Shown in pieces: positions 12,352 through 36,226 of a stretch of DNA of 64,000 nt. The notes beneath the pieces were generated by a model. That model was not told the DNA's origin. It saw only the letters and a list, made by a program, of their open reading frames with translations, and did not search any database. Positions within the stretch are counted from its first letter, which is position 1, and each line of letters starts with the position of its first letter. Position numbers and translations under genes: made by a program. The stretch covers positions 1,798,001 to 1,862,000 of the forward strand of contig JAGTPG010000002.1 of assembly GCA_018195615.1 (NCBI GenBank). The letters are read 5' to 3'. This DNA is from Streptomyces tuirus (GTDB lineage: Bacteria > Actinomycetota > Actinomycetes > Streptomycetales > Streptomycetaceae).

Positions 12352-12423
12352 TGGGCGATACTGGGTTCGAACCAGTGACCTCTTCGGTGTGAACGAAGCG
12401 CTCTCCCACTGAGCTAATCGCCC
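12352..12423 (-). tRNA. tRNA-Val (anticodon CAC), second copy
   Basis: This is identical over all 72 nt to the tRNA at 2277-2348, including the TTCACAC anticodon loop. The immediate flanks differ apart from a few bases, so the repeat is the tRNA itself. Confidence 0.96.
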
Positions 12424-18938: not shown

Positions 18939-19011
18939 GCGGACGTAGCTCAGTTGGTAGAGCGCAACCTTGCCAAGGTTGAGGTCGCGAGTTCGAGCCT
19001 CGTCGTCCGCT
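18939..19011 (+). tRNA. tRNA-Gly (anticodon GCC)
   Basis: This is a 73-nt cloverleaf with acceptor GCGGACG/CGTCCGC and discriminator T. The anticodon stem CAACC/GGTTG surrounds the loop TTGCCAA, so the anticodon is GCC. It is the first gene of a five-tRNA cluster on the plus strand. Confidence 0.96.
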
Positions 19012-19048
19012 CGAAGGAAGAGGGGGCTTCCCGGTCCCCTACACTCCT

Positions 19049-19120
19049 GGTGGAGTGGCCGAGAGGCGAGGCAACGGCCTGCAAAGCCGTCTACACGGGT
19101 TCAAATCCCGTCTCCACCTC
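19049..19120 (+). tRNA. tRNA-Cys (anticodon GCA)
   Basis: This is a 72-nt cloverleaf with acceptor GGTGGAG/CTCCACC, an anticodon arm with loop CTGCAAA (anticodon GCA), and T arm CGGG-TTCAAAT-CCCG. It is second in the tRNA cluster. Confidence 0.95.
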
Positions 19121-19123
19121 CAA

Positions 19124-19195
19124 GGACGATTAGCTCAGCGGGAGAGCGCTTCCCTGACACGGAAGAGGTCACTGGTTCAATCCCAGTATCGTCCA
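19124..19195 (+). tRNA. tRNA-Val (anticodon GAC), copy 1
   Basis: The acceptor is GGACGAT/ATCGTCC with discriminator A. The anticodon stem CTTCC/GGAAG has loop CTGACAC, so the anticodon is GAC (reads GUC and GUU). It begins only a few bases after tRNA-Cys. Coordinates may be off by one base. Confidence 0.94.
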
Positions 19196-19221
19196 CTGGA
19201 TCTGCTCGACGATCCGAACCC

Positions 19222-19293
19222 GCGCGATTAGCTCAGCGGGAGAGCGCTTCCCTGACACGGAAGAGGTCACTGGTTCAATCCCAGTATCGCGCA
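19222..19293 (+). tRNA. tRNA-Val (anticodon GAC), copy 2 with altered acceptor stem
   Basis: The body is identical to copies 1 and 3, but the acceptor stem is GCGCGAT/ATCGCGC. Base pairs 2-71 and 3-70 are both exchanged in a compensated way, so the stem stays paired. Confidence 0.95.
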
Positions 19294-19336
19294 CGCAGTG
19301 CCCATGATCCGCTGCACTGAGTGGTCATGGTCCGGA

Positions 19337-19408
19337 GGACGATTAGCTCAGCGGGAGAGCGCTTCCCTGACACGGAAGAGGTCACTGGTTCAATCCCAGT
19401 ATCGTCCA
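19337..19408 (+). tRNA. tRNA-Val (anticodon GAC), copy 3
   Basis: The sequence matches copy 1, with acceptor GGACGAT/ATCGTCC and anticodon loop CTGACAC. It is the last gene of the cluster and is followed by a strong hairpin. Confidence 0.96.
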
Positions 19409-32576: not shown

Positions 32577-33395
32577 TCAGAAGGAGGCGAGCACGGAGCC
32601 GGCGTACTTGTCCTGGATGAACTTCTTCACCTCGGGCGAGGTGAGGAGCTTCGCGAGCTTCTTCACGCGCGGGTCGTCCTCGTTGCCCTTCTTCACGGCG
32701 AGGAAGTTGCCGTAGGGGTTGTTCTTCGGGGACTCCAGGACGAGGGCGTCCTTCGACGGCTTGAGGTCGGACTCGATGGCGTAGTTGCCGTTGACGACGG
32801 CGGCGTCCACGTCGTCGAGGGAGCGCGGGGTCTGGGCCGCCTCCAGCTCCTTGAACTCGAGCTTCTTAGGGTTCTCGGTGATGTCGGACGGGGTCGCCTC
32901 GTTGCCGACGCCCGCCTTGAGGGTGATCAGCCCGTTGGCGGCCAGGAGCTTCAGGGCGCGGGCCTCGTTGACGGTGTCGTTGGGGACGGCGACGGTCGCA
33001 CCGCTCTTCAGGTCGTCGGCCTTCTTGACCTTGTGGGAGTAGAGGCCGAGCGGTTCCAGGTGGACCGTGACGACGGGCACGATGTCGGTGCCGTTCTTCT
33101 TGTTGTAGTCGTCGAGGTACGGCTTGTTCTGGAAGTAGTTGGCGCCCACGGAGCCGTCCTGCGTCGCGGGGTTCTGCGACGTGTAGTCGGTGAACTCCTT
33201 GACCTCCAGGTCGAGGCCCTCCTTCTTCGCCAGGTTGTCCTTGACGTAGGTGAGGATCTCGGCGTGCGGGACGGGGCTCGCGGCGACGATCAGGGGTCCG
33301 TCGGAACCGGAGTTGCCCGCGCCGCAGGCGCCGAGCCCGAGGGTGAGGGCTCCGGCGGCGAGGACGGCGGTGGTGATCTTGGCGGTGTTACGCAC
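32577..33395 (-). CDS. metQ: Methionine ABC transporter substrate-binding lipoprotein
   Basis: The protein has 272 residues starting at GTG 33395. It has a Sec signal with lipobox LGACGAG near residue 23 and the NlpA/MetQ family fold: IVAASPVPHAEIL, YTSQNPATQDGSVGANYFQNKPYLDDYN, HLEPLGLYS and VAVPNDTVNEARAL in order. It would deliver D/L-methionine to the MetNI complex on the outer face of the membrane. It is the third gene of metNIQ, with a 63-bp gap after metI. Confidence 0.95.
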   Translation of the reverse strand: MRNTAKITTAVLAAGALTLGLGACGAGNSGSDGPLIVAASPVPHAEILTYVKDNLAKKEGLDLEVKEFTDYTSQNPATQDGSVGANYFQNKPYLDDYNKKNGTDIVPVVTVHLEPLGLYSHKVKKADDLKSGATVAVPNDTVNEARALKLLAANGLITLKAGVGNEATPSDITENPKKLEFKELEAAQTPRSLDDVDAAVVNGNYAIESDLKPSKDALVLESPKNNPYGNFLAVKKGNEDDPRVKKLAKLLTSPEVKKFIQDKYAGSVLASF

Positions 33396-33458: not shown

Positions 33459-34166
33459 TCAGGAAGCGGCCTTGAGCAGCCGCAGTTTCGGGGCGGGGCC
33501 CGAGTGGGCGCCGCGGCGGTGCAGGGAGCGGGCCGCGTAGTCGCCGGCGAACTGGATGAGGGAGATGACGACGGCGAGGATCGCGACGGTGATCCACATC
33601 AGCTGGGTCTCGAAGCGCTGGTAGCCGTAGCGGATGGCGATGTCTCCGAGCCCGCCGGCGCCGACCGTGCCCGCCATGGCCGAGTAGCCGATGAGTGCGA
33701 CGATCGTGGTGGTGGTGCTGGAGATCAGCGACGGCAGGGACTCGGGCACGAGAACCTTGCGGACGATGGTCCAGGTGTTGCCGCCCATGGACTGCACGGC
33801 CTCGACGAGCCCGTGGTCCACTTCGCGTACGGCCGTCTCGACCAGGCGCGCGAAGAAGGGGATGGCTCCGACGGCGAGCGGCACGATGGCGGCCTCGCGG
33901 CCGATGGTCGTGCCCGTGATCCAGCGGGTGAAGGTCATCAGCGCGACCATCAGGATGATGAACGGCAGGGAGCGGGCGATGTTCACGACCTGCCCGATGA
34001 CCTTGTTGGCGACGACGTTCTGCAGGAGACCGCCGCGGTCGGTGAGGACCAGCAGGATGCCGAGCGGAAGTCCGCCGAGGACGGCGATGAGCGTGGACCA
34101 GCCGACCATGTAGAGCGTGTCCCAACACGCCTGTTCCAGCAGGGGCCGCATCTCGGACCAGGTCAC
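33459..34166 (-). CDS. metI: Methionine ABC transporter permease
   Basis: The protein has 235 residues from GTG 34166, with five membrane segments. The EAA motif is LVEAVQSMGGNTWTIVRKVLVPE near residue 140, and the MetI-specific segment IGYSAMAGTVGAGGLGDIAIRYGYQRF follows. Its GTG overlaps the metN stop (GTGA), so translation is coupled. It pairs as a homodimer with MetN. Confidence 0.95.
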   Translation of the reverse strand: MTWSEMRPLLEQACWDTLYMVGWSTLIAVLGGLPLGILLVLTDRGGLLQNVVANKVIGQVVNIARSLPFIILMVALMTFTRWITGTTIGREAAIVPLAVGAIPFFARLVETAVREVDHGLVEAVQSMGGNTWTIVRKVLVPESLPSLISSTTTTIVALIGYSAMAGTVGAGGLGDIAIRYGYQRFETQLMWITVAILAVVISLIQFAGDYAARSLHRRGAHSGPAPKLRLLKAAS

Positions 34167-35197
34167 TTGGCACCTTCCTTCACCAGTACGGACTCGTGGC
34201 CCGGGACGTCGATCTGGAGGCCCTGTTCGCGCAGGAAGCCGATCGGCACGACGTTGTCCTCGTAGCGGCCGGGCAGTTCGATGCGCATCCGGCCGACCTG
34301 GAGGCCGCCGACGGTGTCGATGGCGGCGCCGAGGATCGATATGTCGATGTTGTAGGTGCGGGCGAGCTGGGAGATGACGGGCTGGGTCGCACTCTCGCCC
34401 TGGAAGGTGACGTCGACGACGGTGCGGTCCTCGCCGGAGGCCTCGCCGTCGAGCGGGAACAGGGCGGCGGCCAGTTCGGAGCCGGGGGTGGCCAGGAGCT
34501 CGCTGACGGTGCCCGACTCGACGATGCGCCCGTTCTCCATGAGCGCGGCCGAGTCGCAGACCGACTTCACGACGTCCATCTCGTGGGTGATGAGCAGGAC
34601 AGTCAGGCCGAGCTGCCGGTTCAGGTCGCGCAGCAGCGCCAGGATCGAGCGGGTGGTCTCCGGGTCGAGGGCGCTGGTGGCCTCGTCGGAGAGCAGCACC
34701 TTGGGGTCGCCGGCCAGGGCGCGGGCGATGCCGACGCGCTGCTTCTGGCCGCCGGAGAGCTGGGCGGGGTAGGCGCCCGCCTTGTCGGCGAGGCCGACCA
34801 GGTCGAGCAGCTCCAGGGCCTTGCGGGAGCGTTCCTTGCCGGACTTGCCGAGGATCTCCAGCGGCAGTTCGACGTTGTCCTGGACGGTCCGCGAGGACAG
34901 CAGGTTGAAGTGCTGGAAGACCATGCCGATCCGGCTGCGCGCCTGCCGCAGTTCCTTCCCGGCGCGCGGGCCACTGCCCGCCAGGGCGGTGAGGTCCTGT
35001 CCGGCGACGCTCACGGTGCCGGAGGTGGGGCGCTCCAGCAGGTTGACGCAGCGGATGAGCGAGGACTTGCCGGCGCCGGACTGGCCGATGACGCCGTACA
35101 CCTCGCCTTCGCGGACGTGCAGGTCGACGCCGTCCAGGGCGGTGACCTCGCGGCCGCGCGAACGGTAGACCTTGGTCAGGTCCGTTGTGGTGATCAC
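34163..35197 (-). CDS. metN: Methionine ABC transporter ATP-binding protein with NIL domain
   Basis: The protein has 344 residues from GTG 35197. It has Walker A GQSGAGKSS near residue 39, signature LSGGQKQRVGIARAL near residue 143 and Walker B VLLSDEATSALD near residue 165. The C-terminal 80 residues form the NIL regulatory domain (VVDVTFQGESATQPVISQLARTYNIDISIL), which in this family binds methionine and inhibits transport. I choose GTG 35197 because GGAAA lies six bases upstream. GTG 35212 and ATG 35254 are alternatives. A Cys-rich leader ORF lies about 210 bp upstream. Confidence 0.94.
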   Translation of the reverse strand: MITTTDLTKVYRSRGREVTALDGVDLHVREGEVYGVIGQSGAGKSSLIRCVNLLERPTSGTVSVAGQDLTALAGSGPRAGKELRQARSRIGMVFQHFNLLSSRTVQDNVELPLEILGKSGKERSRKALELLDLVGLADKAGAYPAQLSGGQKQRVGIARALAGDPKVLLSDEATSALDPETTRSILALLRDLNRQLGLTVLLITHEMDVVKSVCDSAALMENGRIVESGTVSELLATPGSELAAALFPLDGEASGEDRTVVDVTFQGESATQPVISQLARTYNIDISILGAAIDTVGGLQVGRMRIELPGRYEDNVVPIGFLREQGLQIDVPGHESVLVKEGAK

Positions 35198-35405
35198 GTG
35201 GGTTTCCGTCACTGTCGAGTGCGCGGGCGTGGGTGTGCCCGGGCACAGGTGCATTCGTTCAGGGACGCGACACGGTTCTCGCGGGGGCGGGGAACCGGAG
35301 AGAACTTGTGCGCGGGCGGCTCGGCGTCACGCACCGCTCGGGGCGTGCGGACATGCCGCGGGTCTCGCTTCGGGGCGCGAGCTCAGGGGGTGGTGCGGGG
35401 GCCCT

Positions 35406-35492
35406 CTAGAAGGCGCACATTCGACACGTACAACGAGCACCGGGCGTCATGGTCGCCTCGGTCGCGGGGATGCGGTCGCTCGTCGTGGTCAT
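35406..35492 (-). CDS. Cys-rich leader peptide upstream of metNIQ
   Basis: A 28-residue ORF from ATG 35492 to TAG 35406 ends GARCTCRMCAF, so three Cys occur in its last seven residues. An internal ATG at 35450 would give a 14-residue version. A promoter-like sequence lies just upstream and would place the transcript start close to the first ATG, making it leaderless. Short uORFs ending in Cys clusters upstream of sulfur genes act as cysteine-responsive attenuators in actinobacteria. That role is inferred here. About 208 bp, including small hairpins, separate it from metN. Confidence 0.6.
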   Translation of the reverse strand: MTTTSDRIPATEATMTPGARCTCRMCAF

Positions 35493-35496
35493 GCCG

Positions 35497-35525
35497 CAAG
35501 TAAAACACGCGTACGGTCCTGACAA
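35497..35525 (-). promoter_or_regulatory. Sigma-70-type promoter of leader peptide and metNIQ
   Basis: On the minus strand TTGTCA (35520-35525) and TACTTG (35497-35502) are separated by exactly 17 bp. The leader ATG at 35492 is 4 bp beyond the -10 hexamer, which fits a leaderless transcript. Confidence 0.5.
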
Positions 35526-35575
35526 GCCGACGCTGTCCGGATGCTGGACAGCGGTGGACAGGGCGCCGGGGCTCG

Positions 35576-36226
35576 TCAGCCGCGGCGGGAGATCTCCACT
35601 CCCCGCTCGGTGACCAGTGCGGACAGGGCCGACAGGTCCTCGACCACCAGATCGGCGTGGAGCTCGTGGGCTCGGTGCGTTGTGGTCAATGCCACGGTGG
35701 TCATACCGGCGGCACGCCCGGCCGCGAGGCCCGCCGGGGCGTCCTCGAAGACGACGCAGTGGGCGGGGTCGACGCCGAGGGTGCGGGCGGCGAGCAGGTA
35801 GGGCTCGGGGTCCGGCTTGCCCCGGGTGACGTCGTCCGCGCAGACGAGCGTCTTGGGCAGGATGCCGACGGCGTCGAGCCGGGCCTCGGCCAGCCGCCGG
35901 GTGGCGGAGGTGACGACGGCCCAGCGCTCGGAGGGCAGGGCGTCGAGGAAGGTGCGGGTCCCCGGCAGCAGACGCACCCCGCCGTTGGGTACGTCCTCCA
36001 CCTCGAGGTCCTCGATCCGCGCGACCGCCTCCGGCACCACGCCGGCGGGCAGCAGGTCGGCGGCTATCTCGACGGCCGGCCGGCCGTGCAGCTCGACCCG
36101 GGCGAACTCCTCGGCCGTGATCCCGTACTCCGTGGCCCACCGCGCCCAGCAGCGGTCCACCGAGGCGAGGGAGGAGACCAGGGTTCCGTCGTTGTCGAAC
36201 AGCAGGGCGTGCGCGTGGATCTTCAT
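35576..36226 (-). CDS. HAD-superfamily hydrolase (beta-phosphoglucomutase-like)
   Basis: The protein has 216 residues. Motif I is LLFDNDGTLV near residue 10, with Asn replacing the usual residue between the two Asp. Motif II is VTSATRRLAEARL near residue 107. Motif III is the Lys in TRGKPDPEPYLLAA near residue 138. Motif IV is VVFEDAPAGLAAGRAAGM near residue 160. The cap is of the small helical type. It is probably a sugar-phosphate phosphatase. The substrate is not predictable. Confidence 0.9.
   Translation of the reverse strand: MKIHAHALLFDNDGTLVSSLASVDRCWARWATEYGITAEEFARVELHGRPAVEIAADLLPAGVVPEAVARIEDLEVEDVPNGGVRLLPGTRTFLDALPSERWAVVTSATRRLAEARLDAVGILPKTLVCADDVTRGKPDPEPYLLAARTLGVDPAHCVVFEDAPAGLAAGRAAGMTTVALTTTHRAHELHADLVVEDLSALSALVTERGVEISRRG

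Follow-up and report, generated by a model that had tools for sequence, protein, structure and literature searches.

Does the short reading frame upstream of metNIQ in Streptomyces tuirus act as a regulatory leader of the methionine importer, and if so, which amino acid would it sense? In the window, which is the whole 64,000-nucleotide stretch of DNA that was analysed, this upstream ORF (uORF) is located on the minus strand (35406-35492) and runs from an ATG at 35492-35490 to a TAG at 35408-35406. Its 28 codons encode the peptide MTTTSDRIPATEATMTPGARCTCRMCAF, with the C-terminus CTCRMCAF. The end of a HAD-hydrolase gene (35576) is found 83 nt 5′ of the ATG, and the GTG start codon of metN (35197-35195) follows 208 nt 3′ of the stop codon. 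The metN gene (34163-35197, minus strand) was best matched by the NCBIfam model TIGR02314 with 385.1 bits, which is under the cutoff of that model (499.7); metQ, which encodes an NlpA lipoprotein (PF03180), is found later in the operon (32577-33395, minus strand). We placed the metN start at GTG 35197 because the reading frame 5′ of this codon is not kept among relatives, and the alternative start ATG 35254 was rejected for that reason. The motif ACGGAA and the block GCACTCGACAGTGACGGAA before the GTG recur in most leaders of the same genus. An earlier note on this DNA had described a 28-codon ORF ending in CTCRMCAF ahead of metNIQ, and such an ORF is indeed present; homologous leader DNA in 56 of 60 other genomes of the genus (E≤0.001) indicates that it is more than a chance ORF. 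Elsewhere in the window, a cluster of five tRNA genes (18939-19408) and two further tRNAs (2277-2348 and 12352-12423) were observed.

The peptide itself is not new, since metL (SLIV_29928) of Streptomyces lividans TK24, encoding MSTTSDRTPATEATTTPGARCMCRRMCAF upstream of metNIQ, has already been published (PMC8079986). According to the available text of that report, translation of metL has a leaderless start, as concluded from RNA-seq, termination is unclear, with no typical terminator found by the authors, and the peptide is read as a methionine/threonine leader with several Met and Thr residues (PMC8079986). The uORF described here resembles S. lividans metL in its location upstream of metNIQ, near-identical peptide, predicted leaderless start and lack of a typical terminator, and as a homologous peptide directly 5′ of metNIQ it has the defining property of a metL leader. 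Whereas metL was described as Met/Thr-rich, the present analysis adds Cys codons, an RNA fold and a promoter dyad; an RNA alignment, family-wide conservation, covariation, a promoter dyad or a link to cysteine do not appear in the available part of the S. lividans account (PMC8079986). A literature search on metL/metNIQ leader peptides in Streptomyces gave no further title on a Streptomyces metN leader among the matches listed. New here are the family-wide occurrence, the kept frame, the covarying fold without Rfam match, and the dyad common to sir and leuB.

Distribution and reading frame

A DNA search at E≤0.001 identified the leader in 63 of 100 genomes, the own genome included, with the highest match density over positions 35507-35361. 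Covariance model R1 gave matches in 197 of 297 genomes of the family, representing 12 of 17 genera. In an order-wide draw 176 of 197 genomes were matched; these all belong to the same genus, since only one of the six genera in the draw gave matches. When the nine same-genus genomes that had been missed were searched again at E≤1, six stayed without a match and three gave matches (E 0.11 to 0.95) at loci without metN. Two weak matches from a further genus (L120 and L121, E 0.09) both lie upstream of metN and have tails with CRMC. The sole match in the own genome at E≤1 was the element itself, so a second copy was not found there. An exact-pattern scan of named genomes yielded at least 119 loci. 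In 115 of them metN follows within 700 nt, and the remaining four are too close to the end of the fetched sequence (less than 280 nt). Among the 80 loci listed, 78 are from Streptomyces and two from Actinomadura (L242 and L271). The Actinomadura leaders have the tail CRMCDR and keep the GGGCCC sequence and hairpin P4 described below; their N-terminus differs, and the predicted folds include a helix that takes in GGGGTGT shortly 5′ of the tail. All conservation counts given here are conditional on loci fetched by similarity.

The spacing of the elements points to translation of the uORF. When the ATG was positioned from the −10 element, without requiring an ORF, 127 distinct leaders showed 11 different distances between 66 and 99 nt from ATG to tail motif. 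The distance is divisible by 3 in 126 of these leaders, and reading is open to the tail in all 127. The sole frame exception (L057, distance 70) is explained by its diverged tail, for which a substitute pattern shifted by one base was used, and in the −10 count a start at distance 45 (L153) is an internal ATG. The distance from stop codon to P4 takes 17 values in which every phase is represented. On the evidence of frame, the uORF is thus probably translated.

Promoter and a predicted NdgR operator

According to the earlier note, a promoter with 17-bp spacing would put the transcript start almost on the ATG. The hexamers TTGTCA (35525-35520) and TACTTG (35502-35497) are indeed present on the minus strand with a 17-nt spacer, but TTGTCA occurs in the upstream 50 nt of only 2 of 124 distinct leaders and was rejected as −35 element. 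A sigma-70 scan at 9-of-12 found no promoter-like site in 35150-35700. The leaderless reading is still the probable one, not because of the proposed −35 sequence but because an extended −10 element (TGT-TTTACT, 35499-35507, minus strand, 6 nt 5′ of the ATG) is conserved: 123 of 127 leaders have the pattern TGnTT[TA]A[CA]T at a distance of 6-7 nt from the ATG. The reported leaderless ortholog of S. lividans agrees with this (PMC8079986, as far as its available text goes).

Further upstream, centered at −50 from the uORF ATG, lies the dyad TGTCC-AGC-ATCC-GGACA (35534-35550, minus strand), a predicted operator of the NdgR type. The available text of the NdgR ChIP-seq study describes the motif as a 15-bp palindrome of the form GTCC-N7-GGAC, names leuB (SCO5522) and cysI (SCO6102) as targets, and gives sites that include GTCCGCCATGCGGAC (PMC4340878). 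Within 90 nt upstream, GTCC-N7-GGAC is present exactly in 102 of 124 distinct leaders and with at most one mismatch in 119, as compared to 0 and 2 of 124 for the reversed control. The fuller dyad TGTCC-NNN-ATNN-GGACA was found with at most two mismatches in 98 of 124 leaders, and the reversed control in none. Of the 61 such leaders from L001 to L079, 60 have this dyad 40-43 nt from the ATG, whereas the distance is 50-52 nt in 28 of the 37 from L080 onward.

In the own genome, 26 matches to the fuller dyad were obtained when one mismatch was allowed (one place being counted on both strands), versus 10 for the reversed pattern, and one of the 26 is located 305 nt before the nitrite/sulfite reductase gene sir. 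In the leaders of sir, GTCC-N7-GGAC occupies a constant position whose end is 41 nt 5′ of the ATG; 15 of 26 cases are exact and 25 have at most one mismatch. Compared to the fuller metL form, these sites differ at 2-4 positions in the 18 of 26 leaders where they are the top match. Of 25 same-genus genomes, 22 have the dyad upstream of leuB at a distance of 39-40 nt from its ATG; scored in that orientation, it departs from the fuller form by 2-4 mismatches. A dyad some 50 bp upstream of the start is thus seen with metL (35534-35550), the sir leader (L176:1501-1517) and leuB (L155:1501-1517). A one-mismatch dyad also occurs about 300 nt 5′ of a gene for an OppA-like solute-binding protein (L170:1501-1517).

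A site of the GTCC-N7-GGAC type, by which members of the NdgR regulon can be recognized, lies upstream of the metL leader, and metNIQ is predicted to belong to this regulon. None of the names metN, SCO1559, SCO1557 and SCO1558 occurs in the available text of the ChIP-seq paper, and its Table 2 has no methionine importer (PMC4340878); the assignment of metNIQ as NdgR target is a prediction for this reason.

Sensor codons near the stop

The candidate sensor is the codon tract TGT-ACG-TGT-CGA-ATG-TGC (35415-35432, minus strand), encoding C-T-C-R-M-C and overlapping the end of helix P1 (see below). The earlier note proposed that the terminal Cys codons tie methionine uptake to the supply of cysteine or Cys-tRNA. 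Conservation of these codons was found for the larger part: in 107 distinct tail-filtered uORFs, the residue directly 5′ of Arg-Met is Cys in 82, encoded by TGT in 74 of them, and the residue directly after Arg-Met is Cys in 91 and His in 1, but Arg replaces the last Cys in 15; as the tail filter demands R-M followed by C, R or H, the latter positions are not independent counts. Leaders L057 and L058 fall outside the filtered set although both carry the uORF. Three codons before Arg-Met, Cys is found in 53 and Arg in 27 of the 107. The last ten residues contain at least one Cys in 106 uORFs, with 2-4 Cys in 95, one Cys in 7 and none in 1.

The same stretch also has conserved methionine codons, and the end-product reading, in which Met codons act in the tract and the importer is controlled by methionine rather than by cysteine, has a minority share of the probability, perhaps one chance in four. 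It agrees with the published interpretation of S. lividans metL as given in the available text (PMC8079986), and metN is the downstream gene. Met is found two codons before Arg in 61 of 107 uORFs, and after Arg in all 107, as the filter demands. On the other hand, this first tract Met is Thr in the window, initiator supply would confound sensing by an ORF that itself starts with Met, and two Met are present in 76 of 107 tails as compared to 2-4 Cys in 95; the presence of one or more Met among the last ten residues in all 107 again follows from the filter. The dyad common to sir, and a leader of the NF042934 family on sir, also favor cysteine, and the cysteine link of the earlier note, plausible in itself, gains further strength from the shared NdgR-type site, whereas the conserved Met codons and the published Met/Thr reading weaken it. 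The data support a tract for sulfur amino acids rather than for cysteine alone. As to the amino acid sensed, cysteine appears favored, with a chance slightly above even, methionine would come second at under one chance in three, and what is left goes to neither or both.

Another explanation is that the C-terminal (C)RMC sequence arrests the ribosome as nascent peptide in response to a small molecule, with tRNA charging playing no role. R-M-C is the most constant part of the peptide and length changes fall 5′ of it, but variation is seen at the final one or two positions (AF, DR, DC, HC, EL, A, D), and conservation extends beyond Arg to the codon CGA, kept in 104 of 107 uORFs. Because the codon and not just the residue is kept, a constraint on RNA or codon choice is indicated, and we consider peptide arrest improbable. 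In metN, metQ and the HAD gene, serving as background in the window, CGA is used for 1 of 47 Arg codons and TGT for 0 of 6 Cys codons.

RNA fold of the leader

The uORF codons also appear to specify an RNA structure, a three-way junction that lies wholly inside the reading frame with codons 3-5 and 19-21 forming P1, codons 7-10 P2, and codons 11-13 and 16-18 P3; codons 14-15 make up the loop of P3 and vary freely. All positions given here are on the minus strand. The 5′ strand of P1, ACGACGAGC (35478-35486), pairs with the 3′ strand GCTCGTTGT (35430-35438), as predicted from the alignments and by RNAalifold. P2 (35463-35474) is the weakest helix, with 70.5% of cells paired in 61 diverse leaders, and P3 (35439-35462) consists of ACCG-A-GGCG and CGCC-CGGT around the variable loop. 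RNAalifold unaided recovered most of P1, P2 and P4 and all 8 pairs of P3. Hairpin P4, CTCGC-GCCCCGAA-GCGAG (35364-35381), was seen in the alignments 3′ of the ORF and has a near-invariant loop. The sequence AGGGC immediately 3′ of the stop codon (35401-35405) could pair with this loop.

Covariation supports the helices to different degrees in the three alignments. In the MAFFT alignment of same-genus leaders (A1, 56 of 57 distinct leaders, L059 left out), 95.4% of cells are paired and 12 double-change cells were counted versus 2.7 after shuffling (0/500), in counts that also take in four hypothetical pairs between GGGC and loop; these and the following shuffle figures are not probabilities because the shuffles ignore relatedness. 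The structure-blind alignment (A3, 61 diverse leaders picked by hand) has 82.8% of cells paired, 76 double-change cells versus 31.3 (0/500) and a covariation score of 0.134 versus 0.093 (0/500), with 41 cells and 0.074 for the best slid controls. No excess was found in this alignment in the number of double-changed pairs (12 versus 9.2 shuffled, 36/500, one slid control reaching 16) or of pair types (34 versus 32.8, 201/500). In the model-fitted alignment, which leans to the structure, 142 double-change cells compare to 45.4 after shuffling and 42 in the best slid control, and all five measures gave 0/500. Alignment A2 includes weak rows, for example L123, which is without metN.

The clearest covarying pair, in P1, occurs as GC 23, AU 21 and CG 6 times: AGC-GCT (Ser-Ala) and AAC-GTT (Asn-Val) switch together such that P1 is preserved. 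Another P1 pair is AU in 35 and GC in 13 cases, and replacement of Cys 21 by Arg (TGT to CGT) changes a G-U pair of P1 to G-C. The putative pairing with the P4 loop is nearly without variation and thereby outside the reach of covariation. Its two partners mostly are kept or lost jointly, in part through shared descent: 110 of 124 leaders have both GAGGGY and the P4 loop motif, 10 have neither, 4 have GAGGGY only and none has the loop only. In L087, L089, L092, L096 and L102, as well as in L090, L091 and L094, the P4 stem and loop are replaced jointly with the GGGC after the stop, and in the last three leaders GGGC-TCA-GCCC could form a direct hairpin. A stop-codon hairpin, GCCTT-CTAG-AGGGC, was dropped because tails ending with CDR, CHC or CD lose it.

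A three-way junction and a near-invariant P4 loop would fit a riboswitch that binds a ligand such as SAM, in which case the uORF would be no more than incidental. We regard this as very improbable, since the frame is kept in the uORF, conserved unpaired bases are few in the junction apart from a bulged A, and no Rfam 15 family matches the leader at its gathering score or even at E≤1. Instead, the approximately 60 nt may be a dual-coded RNA switch that combines the coding sequence of a leaderless uORF with a covarying three-way junction and is possibly followed by a GGGC/P4-loop pseudoknot. The ribosome on Cys/Met codons, rather than a ligand, would then adjust methionine import to the supply of cysteine, under NdgR as for cysteine synthesis, and the leader would be a family-wide structured RNA without Rfam match. 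We put forward this combined proposal tentatively, with a probability of about one in three.

Region between the uORF and metN

In 35150-35700 no terminator-like sites were found, so the intrinsic terminator of a classical attenuator is missing from this region. The RNA 3′ of the uORF stop is rich in C (C 0.46, G 0.30), with C exceeding G in 127 of 127 leaders, while the upstream 140 nt are balanced. Because of this C-richness, Rho may act between stop codon and metN: a finished uORF would leave C-rich RNA to Rho, and a stalled ribosome would alter access. Rho was also proposed by Seliverstov et al. for mycobacterial cys leaders (PMC1262725, available text), and a typical terminator was likewise not found by the S. 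lividans authors (PMC8079986, available text). C-richness is weak evidence in a G+C-rich genome, and we see Rho-dependent transcription attenuation as possible but rather doubtful; it is compatible with the leader-peptide attenuator as its output step.

Masking of the metN ribosome site is attractive for Streptomyces. Just 5′ of this site lies CGCGCACTCGACA (35213-35225, minus strand), which pairs with the tract TGTCGAATGTGCG of the window at 12 of 13 positions. Only 0.09% of 10,662 background pieces are as complementary when ungapped, and 0.54% by duplex energy. Complementarity of tract and ribosome site with p<0.05 against shuffles was found in 40 of 68 Streptomyces-like leaders and in 4 of 23 and 7 of 23 leaders of other groups, where CGCGCACTCGACA is mostly absent; one A·C mismatch position of the duplex is unpaired in 121 of 122 leaders. 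There was no clear excess of double changes (10 versus 6.5 shuffled, 41/500), with higher numbers for slid controls (16 at +2 and 12 at −1), and duplex energies did not discriminate native from partner-swapped combinations (−21.5 versus −21.3 kcal/mol, 118 leaders). Folding of whole leaders gave a mean probability of 0.32 for the pairing (122 leaders). Because the complementarity is rare beyond Streptomyces-like leaders and its covariation unclear, masking does not belong to the common ground of the family, which judged from the alignments is P1, the tract, GGGC and P4. A second CGAATGC 5′ of metN (35257-35251), present in many relatives, could compete with the uORF tail for GCACTCGACA.

Comparison with known cysteine leaders

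Polycysteine leaderless short ORFs of mycobacteria reportedly attenuate translation through pairing that hides the downstream ribosome site (a 2020 study by Canestrari et al.). The metL leader was expected in the earlier note to be the same device, which holds only in part: the tail of the window, C-T-C-R-M-C, has interspersed Cys codons rather than a run, and the uORF is also a structured RNA. In common with the mycobacterial ORFs, metL has a predicted leaderless start, Cys codons and an association with sulfur genes (PMC13236596, available text). It differs in having C-M-C-R-M-C instead of a Cys run, a fold inside the ORF, and methionine import as the downstream function, and masking of the ribosome site, a property of the polycysteine ORFs, is suggested for metL in Streptomyces. 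The cysteine leader peptides of Mycobacterium, P. acnes and B. longum described by Seliverstov et al. in 2005 share with metL the short ORF, the Cys codons near the stop and the lack of a terminator, but have runs of Cys codons, which metL has not; according to the available text, those authors did not find RNA structure to be conserved ahead of the methionine operons of the actinobacteria that they studied (PMC1262725).

Within the same genome, the leader of sir encodes MSGTGIALVSRRHVDLGRMSSAICPAH (L176:1558-1641) and matches NF042934, an attenuator family already known, with 32.9 bits (cutoff 27); its score for NF042936, the Ms4527A Cys-rich leader, is 28.2 bits and below the cutoff of 45. 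The sir leader and metL have in common the type and spacing of the dyad and Cys near the stop. Unlike the sir leader, metL matches neither family: three metL peptides searched against NCBIfam gave no families at E≤1, NF042934 and NF042936 included. Weaker look-alikes of the sir leader peptide occur at L180, L181 and L182.

Proposed mechanism and implications

On balance we favor, with somewhat better than even confidence, a leaderless leader-peptide attenuator of metNIQ in which the position of the ribosome gauges the supply of sulfur amino acids. Transcription would start at or beside the AUG from the extended −10 promoter with its predicted NdgR operator, and the ribosome would have to unfold the three-way junction in the uORF codons before reaching the C-M-C-R-M-C-like tract near the stop. 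If cysteinyl-tRNA (or methionyl-tRNA) is scarce, the ribosome would stall on the tract; with ample supply it would reach the stop codon and depart. Its position would set the folding 3′ of the stop, presumably by deciding whether GGGC and the P4 loop come together, and in Streptomyces also the pairing of the tract with the sequence before the metN ribosome site. A stalled ribosome would leave metN open and a finished one would allow it to be shut, at the level of translation or via Rho. We infer that the ribosome halts, which amino acid it senses, and in which direction and at what level metN is controlled.

If this mechanism is correct, a large group of antibiotic producers would gate methionine uptake by the supply of sulfur amino acids through a leader in which codons and fold are the same letters. 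Attenuation by ribosome position would no longer be confined to cysteine genes with polycysteine leaders but would include a methionine importer, with metNIQ predicted in the NdgR regulon, and the leader would offer a compact model of how selection fits a peptide and an RNA structure into one sequence.
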